From: Acidobacteriota bacterium
GTDB taxonomy: Bacteria; Acidobacteriota; Vicinamibacteria; Vicinamibacterales; UBA2999
NCBI GenBank assembly: GCA_030697165.1
Contig: JAUYQQ010000009.1
Coordinates: forward strand, 248,001-312,000
Direction: 5' to 3'
DNA length: 64,000 nucleotides
Under the pieces are notes generated by a model. That model was given only the letters and a program-made list of their open reading frames with translations, did not search any database and was not told the origin of the DNA. Positions 19,724-22,297 of this stretch are shown piece by piece. Each line of letters starts with the position of its first letter. Position 1 is the first letter of the stretch. Both the position numbers and the translations under genes were made by a program.

Positions 19724-20092
19724 TCATTTCTTGTCGTGGAAGTAGCTGTCGGTGCCGTCCAGCCAGTCCTGGCGGATGGGGCTGAAGATGTCCATCTCGA
19801 ACGTGTCGTCGATGGCCTCGGCCTGGTGCGGCAGCCATGACGGAATGTGCAGCACCTCGCCCTCGCGCACGGTGATCTCCTCACCGTTAATCACGAATCG
19901 CAGCCCGCCCTGCAGGACGTAGGTCATTTGCTCGCTTTCGTGCGAGTGCATGGGCACGAGCGCGCCACGCTTGAGGTAGATCTGGGTAACCATCTCGCGT
20001 TCGCCGGTGATGATCTTGCGGGAGATCATTTCGGTGACTTTTTCGAGCGCGATCTCGTCCCAGCGATAGAGGCGTACGGATGGTGAAGGCAT
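19724..20092 (-). CDS. Cupin-domain protein
   Basis: A 122-residue single-domain cupin. The first motif [28 protein letters not shown] holds the metal-binding HxH and glutamate (about 49-54). The second motif [19 protein letters not shown] holds the final histidine. The substrate or role is not identifiable; such proteins act as small metal-dependent isomerases, dioxygenases or sensors. The ATG is fixed by the divergent promoter: it lies 13 bases from a perfect TATAAT on the minus strand. It probably co-transcribes with the LemA-like gene. Confidence 0.85.
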
Positions 20093-20105
20093 GCGTTTGC
20101 CGCGG

Positions 20106-20133
20106 ATTATAGCATTCGGCCGGATGGTATAAT
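20106..20133. promoter_or_regulatory. Symmetric bidirectional promoter between the cupin and E1 genes
   Basis: Two perfect extended -10 boxes face outward: TGCTATAAT on the minus strand (20114-20106) and TGGTATAAT on the plus strand (20125-20133). The 28-bp block is nearly palindromic, ATTATA-n-CAT-n-CGG and CCG-n-ATG-n-TATAAT, with 12 of 14 arm positions symmetric. The plus -10 ends 10 bases before the E1 ATG and the minus -10 ends 13 bases before the cupin ATG. Both mRNAs would therefore be leaderless or nearly so. Confidence 0.75.
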
Positions 20134-20143
20134 TTTCGACGAC

Positions 20144-22297
20144 ATGAAGGCTTCGACGCTGGCATCCAGACCCGATGCGCGCACGGCCCCGGCCGCCGGC
20201 GCCGACGCGCAATGGGGCGGTCTCACACGCGATCAGCTGGTGCGGGCCTACCGCACGATGCTGTTGTCGCGCCGCATCGACGACAAGGAGATTCAGCTCA
20301 AGAACCAGAGCCTGATCTTCTTCCAGATCAGCGGTGCCGGCCACGAGGCGGTGCTGGTGGCGGCGGGCCTGCACCTGCGCCCAGGCTACGACTGGTTTTA
20401 TCCGTACTATCGCGACCGCGCGCTGTGCCTGCAGCTCGGCATGACGCCGCTCGAGATGCTGCTGAGCGCGGTCGGCGCGAAGGACGATCCCAACTCCGGC
20501 GGCCGCCAGATGCCGTCGCACTGGGGTCACACCGCGCTCAACATCCCATCGCAAGGCAGCCCGACCGGCACCCAGTGCCTCCAGGCCGTCGGCGCCGGCG
20601 AGGCCGGGATGCTCTACGAGCGACTGACCGACATCCCCGATCGCGACGAGCACTACCACGCCGACGAGATCACCTACATGTCGATCGGCGAAGGCGCCAC
20701 CAGTGAAGGCGAGTTCTGGGAAGCGCTGAACACCGCCTGCACCCGCAACGTGCCGGTGCTGTTCCTCGTCGAGGACAACGGTTACGCGATTTCGGTGCCG
20801 GTCGAAGTGCAGACCGCCGGCGGCGACATCTCGAAGCTGGTCGAGTCGTTCCCCAACCTCGAAATCTTCCGCTGCGACGGCACCGACTTCGTCGATAGCT
20901 ATCGCACCCTCGGCGAGGCCGTCGCGCGGGTGCGCCGCGACCGCAAGCCGGCCTTCGTGCATGCGAAGGTGATCCGGCCGTACTCGCACTCGCTGTCGGA
21001 CGACGAGCGGTTGTACAAGACGCCGGACGAGCGCACGGCCGAGGCGCTGCGCGACCCGCTGACCAGGATGCGGGCGTTCCTGCTGGCAGGGAAGCTGGCC
21101 ACCGATGCCGACCTTGATGAGATCGCGGCGTCGGTCGATCGCGAGATCGCCGAAGCGACCGAGGCGGCGCTCAAGGCGCCCAAGCCGTCGGTCGAGACCG
21201 CCGATCACTTCGTGTTCTCGCCCGACGTGGATCCGACCTCGGCCGACTTCGAGACGCCGGCCCATTCGGAGGGCAAGCCCGACACCATGGTGGCGGCCAT
21301 CAACCGGACGCTCAAGGACGAGATGACGAAGAACCCGCGCATTGTCGTGTTCGGCGAGGACGTCGCCGACGCGAGCCGGGCGGCGGCGCTGGCGCACGTG
21401 CCCGGCAAGGGCGGCGTGTTCAAGGTCACCCACGGCCTGCAGAAGGCCCACGGCCCCGAGCGGGTCTTCAACTCGCCCCTCGCCGAGGCCAACATCGTCG
21501 GCCGCGCGGTCGGCATGGCGACCCGCGGCATCAAGCCGGTGGTCGAGATCCAGTTCTTCGACTACATCTGGCCGGCGATGATGCAGATCAAGGACGAGAT
21601 GTCGATGCTGCGCTACCGCTCGGGCAATCACTGGTCGTGCCCGATGGTGCTGCGCGTGCCGATTGGCGGCTACCTGCGCGGCGGCGCGCCGTACCACAGC
21701 CAGTCGGGGGTCAGCATCTTCGCGCACTGCCCGGGCGTCCGGATTGTCTTTCCGAGCAACGCCGTGGATGCGGCGGGCCTGTTGCGCACGGCGATCCGCT
21801 GCGACGACCCGGTGCTGTACCTCGAGCACAAGCACCTCTATCGCCAGACCTACAACAAGGGCGCCTATCCAGGCGCCGAGTTCATGATTCCGTTCGGCAA
21901 GGGCTCGCTGCGCCGCGAAGGCACCGACATGGTGGTGCTGACGTGGGGCGCGCTCGTGCAGCGCTCGCTGCTGGCGGCCCAGCAGGCCGAGAAGGACGGC
22001 ATCAGCGTCGCGGTGTTCGACCTGCGCACGATCATGCCGTACGACTGGGACGGGATTGCCGAGCTCGTGCGCAAGACCAGCAGGGTGATCATCGCGCACG
22101 AAGACACCCTGACGTGCGGCTTTGGCGCCGAGATCGCCGCCCGCATCAGCGACGAGTTGTTCGAGCACCTGGATGCGCCCGTCAAGCGGGTCGCCGCCAT
22201 GGACTGCCCGGTGGCGTACTGCCCGGAACTCGAGGAGGTCATCCTGCCGCAGTCGGCGGATGTGCTCGCCGCGATCAAGGCCCTTGCGGCGTATTAG
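20144..22297 (+). CDS. Fused alpha-beta E1 subunit of a 2-oxoacid dehydrogenase, branched-chain type
   Basis: Thiamine-diphosphate-dependent E1 that decarboxylates a 2-oxoacid and passes the acyl group to an E2 lipoyl domain; branched-chain 2-oxoacids are the best guess. In 717 residues the E1-alpha part comes first (about 30-370; [22 protein letters not shown] and [19 protein letters not shown]...VEDNGYAIS as the TPP site, where the common GDG reads GEG and the second Asn pair reads DN). The E1-beta part follows (about 385-717; [39 protein letters not shown]). E2 and E3 are not in the window. There is no ribosome-binding site. Confidence 0.9.

Follow-up and report, generated by a model that had tools for sequence, protein, structure and literature searches.

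Between the divergent genes for a cupin and for a fused 2-oxoacid dehydrogenase E1, the 64,000-nucleotide stretch of Acidobacteriota DNA analyzed here (the window) carries two perfect extended -10 boxes (TGnTATAAT) that face outward. We consider it very probable that they are two independent σ70-type extended -10 promoters, set back to back between the two genes. That the boxes act as promoters, where transcription starts, that polymerases exclude each other, and that translation is leaderless are all predictions from the DNA sequence; the alignments of relatives indicate that the box pair is old and conserved across a bacterial order.

The element and its two genes

The intergenic gap, 51 bp long, separates the minus-strand cupin ATG (20092) from the plus-strand E1 ATG (20144) and contains the 28-bp near-palindrome ATTATAGCATTCGGCCGGATGGTATAAT (Table 1). 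Direct reading of 20106-20133 bore out the original prediction of two perfect outward boxes; comparison of the 28-mer with its own reverse complement gave 12 symmetric positions out of 14 in the arms, as had been stated. Between the two hexamers there are 16 bp. Outside the boxes, four of the five inner pairs also match (chance probability ∼0.02 at the local GC content), which is weaker evidence and is partly owed to a shared GATG flank. Each promoter would use the same motif, approximately GATGnTATAAT with the GA-like flank added, and neither has a recognizable -35 element; the usual -35 place of each is occupied by the opposite -10. The near-palindrome would then exist because one motif is used twice in opposite orientations, with the GC-rich center as filler, and its exactness is largely a by-product of the doubled signal. 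A consensus scan of the window (GC content, ∼67%) found no -35/-10 promoter, the expected outcome for promoters that lack a -35, and an Rfam search of the window gave no match.

Table 1. Coordinates of the element, the flanking genes, and the predicted start regions within the window.
Feature	Position	Strand	Details
Near-palindrome with both -10 boxes	20106..20133		28 bp; 12/14 symmetric
Extended -10 of E1 gene, TGGTATAAT	20125..20133	+	Hexamer 20128-20133; flank GGA; kept in 9/9 genus genomes
Extended -10 of cupin gene, TGCTATAAT	20114-20106	-	Hexamer 20111-20106; flank GAA; kept in 9/9 genus genomes
10-bp filler TTCGGCCGGA between both TG motifs	20115..20124		By column conservation across the genus, central CGGCCG not conserved
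E1, 717-aa fused alpha/beta subunit, 2-oxoacid (pyruvate-type) dehydrogenase	20144..22297	+	Pfam E1_dh, Transket_pyr, Transketolase_C
Cupin, 122-aa, single domain	19724..20092	-	Pfam Cupin_2, E = 6e-15
Predicted E1 transcription start region	20139..20144	+	Putative leader ∼0-5 nt, from -10 position
Predicted cupin transcription start region	20096..20099	-	Putative leader ∼4-7 nt, from -10 position

The NCBIfam models for pyruvate dehydrogenase E1 alpha and beta match the E1 protein below their cutoffs. Its ATG is the earliest possible start in the frame, and near relatives align from residue 1 in both the cupin and the E1 proteins. With σ70 geometry, transcription starts ∼7 nt after the hexamer. 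The E1 box stands 10 nt from the ATG in this genome and 9 nt from it in the eight congeners, a constancy that fits leaderless or nearly leaderless initiation; from these positions the E1 mRNA should have little or no leader, starting at or within a few bases of the AUG, and would be translated leaderless. For the cupin the distance is 13 nt here and 23 to 70 nt in the other genus genomes, and is thus not conserved; judged by these distances, a very short cupin leader is confined to this species within the genus. The claim that both mRNAs are leaderless or nearly so is supported for E1 but not, as a general property, for the cupin.

The contrast between the steady 9 to 10 nt of E1 in the genus and the 13 to 70 nt over which the cupin distance drifts could mean that only the E1 direction is a real promoter, with the cupin-side box a by-product. 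We give this reading next to no credence: the cupin box is invariant in nine of nine genus genomes and recurs across families, and it stays near the cupin start where the two boxes have moved far apart (L021, L032, L028, and L103).

In a 464-kb sample, consisting of 400 kb of genome stretches plus the window, TAnAAT clusters at 5 to 11 nt before candidate ATGs (15 of the 22 matches at ≤50 nt upstream), as expected for leaderless genes; some of these candidates, which a simple ORF caller supplied, are internal starts. Leaderless genes were predicted to make up 9.7 to 19.4% of genes in three Acidobacteria genomes (Zheng et al. 2011, PMC3160421). Two lineages with a long gap (L045 and L048) have TTGACAG(G/A)GAACGG near the cupin start and a Shine-Dalgarno-like E1 leader, which suggests a switch to leadered expression.

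Rarity of outward extended -10 pairs

The window contains exactly two TGNTATAAT sites, both in the element; 100 shuffles of the window gave a mean of 0.05 such sites, and none of the shuffles had two. Genome-wide (5,388,385 bp) there are six, and four of these form two outward pairs. ATTATA and TATAAT facing outward with 2 to 32 bp between them occur twice in the genome, one occurrence being the window pair; the inward arrangement (TATAAT-N2..32-ATTATA) occurs nowhere in it, nor does the reversed control pattern. Across 43 genomes of the family, 33 outward pairs stand against 1 inward pair (summed from tables), and 18 of the 33 are at the cupin/E1 locus. The window pair is beyond chance.

The remaining sites of the genome are a second tight outward pair, a site with a weaker outward partner, and a site 5' of a tRNA-like gene. 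The second pair, CATTATAACATCCAATGTTATAATG (G000:C8:218041-218063; L087:1501-1523), is a near-perfect palindrome directly 5' of a leaderless-looking helix-turn-helix gene, XRE-like as judged by eye; it is plausible that it serves as an autoregulatory operator. The site with the weaker partner (L005, G000:C11:238648), like a site in a second genome (L226, G001:C116:7417), has TGCTATAAT facing divergently from TACAAT, with a total span of 27 bp in L005, and is a candidate for another back-to-back promoter in the genus. The last site, TGATATAAT (L006, G000:C22:81969), precedes its tRNA-like gene and is itself preceded by many near-identical tandem units resembling GACAAGAAGTGCCC.

Among the other TGnTATAAT sites inspected in the genus, a few have an outward partner (L005, L226, and L220, with TACAAT or TAGAAT opposite) and most have none, so the idea that a perfect extended -10 is a general sign of a divergent pair was rejected. 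When the 464-kb sample was searched by strict rules for additional tight back-to-back pairs, three weak candidates emerged; the same rules missed the known window pair too, and the search says little about the frequency of such pairs. A spacing preference near 29 bp in other outward pairs appeared as a weak hint among the matches listed, uncorrected for relatedness, and we do not claim it.

Conservation and spacing among relatives

The cupin and E1 genes are divergent neighbors in all nine genomes of the genus and in much of the order. Both boxes are kept in nine of nine, always with a 28-bp span and in the pattern ATTATAGCA-N6-CGG-N-TG-N-TATAAT (N, variable base), which supports the predicted outward promoters for the two genes. 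The box arms are invariant and the CGGCCG center varies freely, with 10 to 13 symmetric positions out of 14 (12 in the window; 13 in G001 and G002). The value of 13 points to some constraint on the inner GAT/ATC flanks, for which a longer extended -10 motif would account. Many other genera of the order also have both boxes, mostly with a span of 27 to 31 bp and in a few cases of 21, 33, or 41 bp; in some lineages the boxes lie ∼60 to 400 bp apart, each adjoining its own gene. Insertions separate them in L021, L028, L032, L100, and L103, where each box remains by its own gene with a similar consensus. The original prediction had stressed how exact the symmetry is and proposed conservation of the palindrome in relatives as a check, with its loss as a refutation. 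The check does not support a functional role for exact symmetry: symmetry is lost in the center within the genus and spacing varies between genera, but both -10 boxes persist.

Three relatives with the acidobacterial cupin/E1 locus at high identity are titled Cyanobacteria, Bifidobacterium breve, and Acidimicrobiia (L011, L027, and L042, respectively); these metagenome-assembled genome labels are probably wrong.

A near-palindrome between divergent genes is in the classic position of an operator, and its spacing is fixed within the genus, so we weighed the possibility that the 28-bp sequence binds a dimeric transcription factor regulating both genes. Such a factor requires half-sites at a fixed spacing; across relatives, however, the arms span 13, 21, 27 to 31, 33, or 41 bp or lie ∼60 to 400 bp apart, each by its own gene, and this variation with the arms kept strongly disfavors a dimer operator. 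The arms are, moreover, the exact sigma -10 consensus. We regard an operator as very unlikely.

The 13-bp span belongs to a sister clade of about a dozen genera, in which the boxes are almost fused as GATAGTGCCATAAT. This -10 pair occurs once per genome, with 12 of 13 matches at the cupin/E1 locus. In a tree of E1 sequences (quick method, SH-aLRT support), the 13-bp rows fall into one group with support of 100, which also takes in L124, a partial row (24% of columns) with an unassigned span; a single change suffices to account for the 13-bp state among the rows to which a span was assigned. Spans of 27 to 31 bp occur throughout the remainder of the tree, and on this midpoint rooting they are probably ancestral. 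The sequence of GATAGTGCCATAAT is nearly invariant in these roughly dozen genera (L205 to L217, except L209), beyond the apparent need of two plain -10 boxes.

One observation sits uneasily with two wholly independent promoters: across diverse genera the spacing holds at 27 to 31 bp while the sequence of the center turns over, which is tighter than needed. Spans of 27 to 31 bp put the complement of each -10 at 15 to 19 bp from the other, at the -35 place, and for this reason the spacing might itself be selected, each hexamer doubling as a weak -35 or sigma region 4 contact of the opposite promoter and coupling the two directions. We hold this to be unlikely, if less so than an operator. Were it true, the 13-bp clade would represent a second stable geometry, with each TG inside the other's hexamer.

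Polymerase geometry and known divergent promoters

The footprint of RNA polymerase extends roughly from -55 to +20. In either direction it would cover the opposite -10, and mutual exclusion is expected: a polymerase bound one way would exclude a second, and each binding event would fire one way. For bidirectional promoters of E. coli, Warman et al. (PMC12825309) report that at all five examined such competition would matter only when one side is activated, basal firing being otherwise too low.

The original prediction had the two genes sharing one melting region in a symmetric promoter that fires both ways. If each bubble opens from the A at -11 of its own -10 as far as about +2, melting is predicted over ∼20097-20110 and ∼20129-20142, with ∼18 bp of duplex, the GC-rich center included, left closed between the two. 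Two points favor one genuinely bidirectional promoter of the kind described by Warman et al. 2021, in which both directions have the -10 and melting region in common: the outward -10s are close, and the 13-bp form of the sister clade, with predicted starts ∼26 bp apart, nears that geometry. In the window, however, 16 bp separate the hexamers, no overlap of the bubbles is predicted, and the starts expected from the -10 positions are ∼41 bp apart, outside the 7 to 25 bp that by definition separate divergent start sites sharing a -10 (a later paper of the same group, PMC10268837). A single shared promoter is accordingly hard to credit, and the claim of a common melting region is not supported.

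If two back-to-back promoters are the correct reading, one orthologous gene pair offers, across an order, two discrete spacings (∼28 and 13 bp) and a separated form. It would be a naturally replicated test case for divergent promoters, with cupin/E1 orthologs on which to compare how polymerases compete and how supercoiling couples the two directions. The locus also lends support to leaderless expression, in Acidobacteriota, of an enzyme of central metabolism.

Among known systems, the leaderless genes that Zheng et al. 2011 (PMC3160421) describe as led by TAnnnT likewise lack a visible Shine-Dalgarno sequence and have their -10 ∼10 nt ahead of the start codon, the position found for E1; the cupin box, at 13 nt, is placed less regularly. 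The box here is a full TGnTATAAT, whereas high-GC genomes usually have the weak TAnnnT. Known extended -10 promoters (Mitchell et al. 2003, as cited in PMC12825309) share the TGn before TATAAT that makes a -35 unneeded, and here TGn stands directly 5' of a perfect hexamer on both strands and is conserved; the present case differs in having two, facing outward with hexamers 16 bp apart. The shared--10 bidirectional promoters of Warman et al. 2021 (PMC10268837, PMC12825309) are also pseudosymmetric, with divergent transcription expected, but the window has two separate -10s, and the 13-bp form of the sister clade comes closer to them. The best match is with divergent back-to-back σ70 promoters: two outward putative promoters with nonoverlapping -10s lie between divergent genes in one short gap, and mutual exclusion of polymerases is expected. 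The pair is a well-conserved case of this known arrangement, set apart by its near symmetry, by its conservation across the order, and by having a perfect extended -10 but no -35 on each side.
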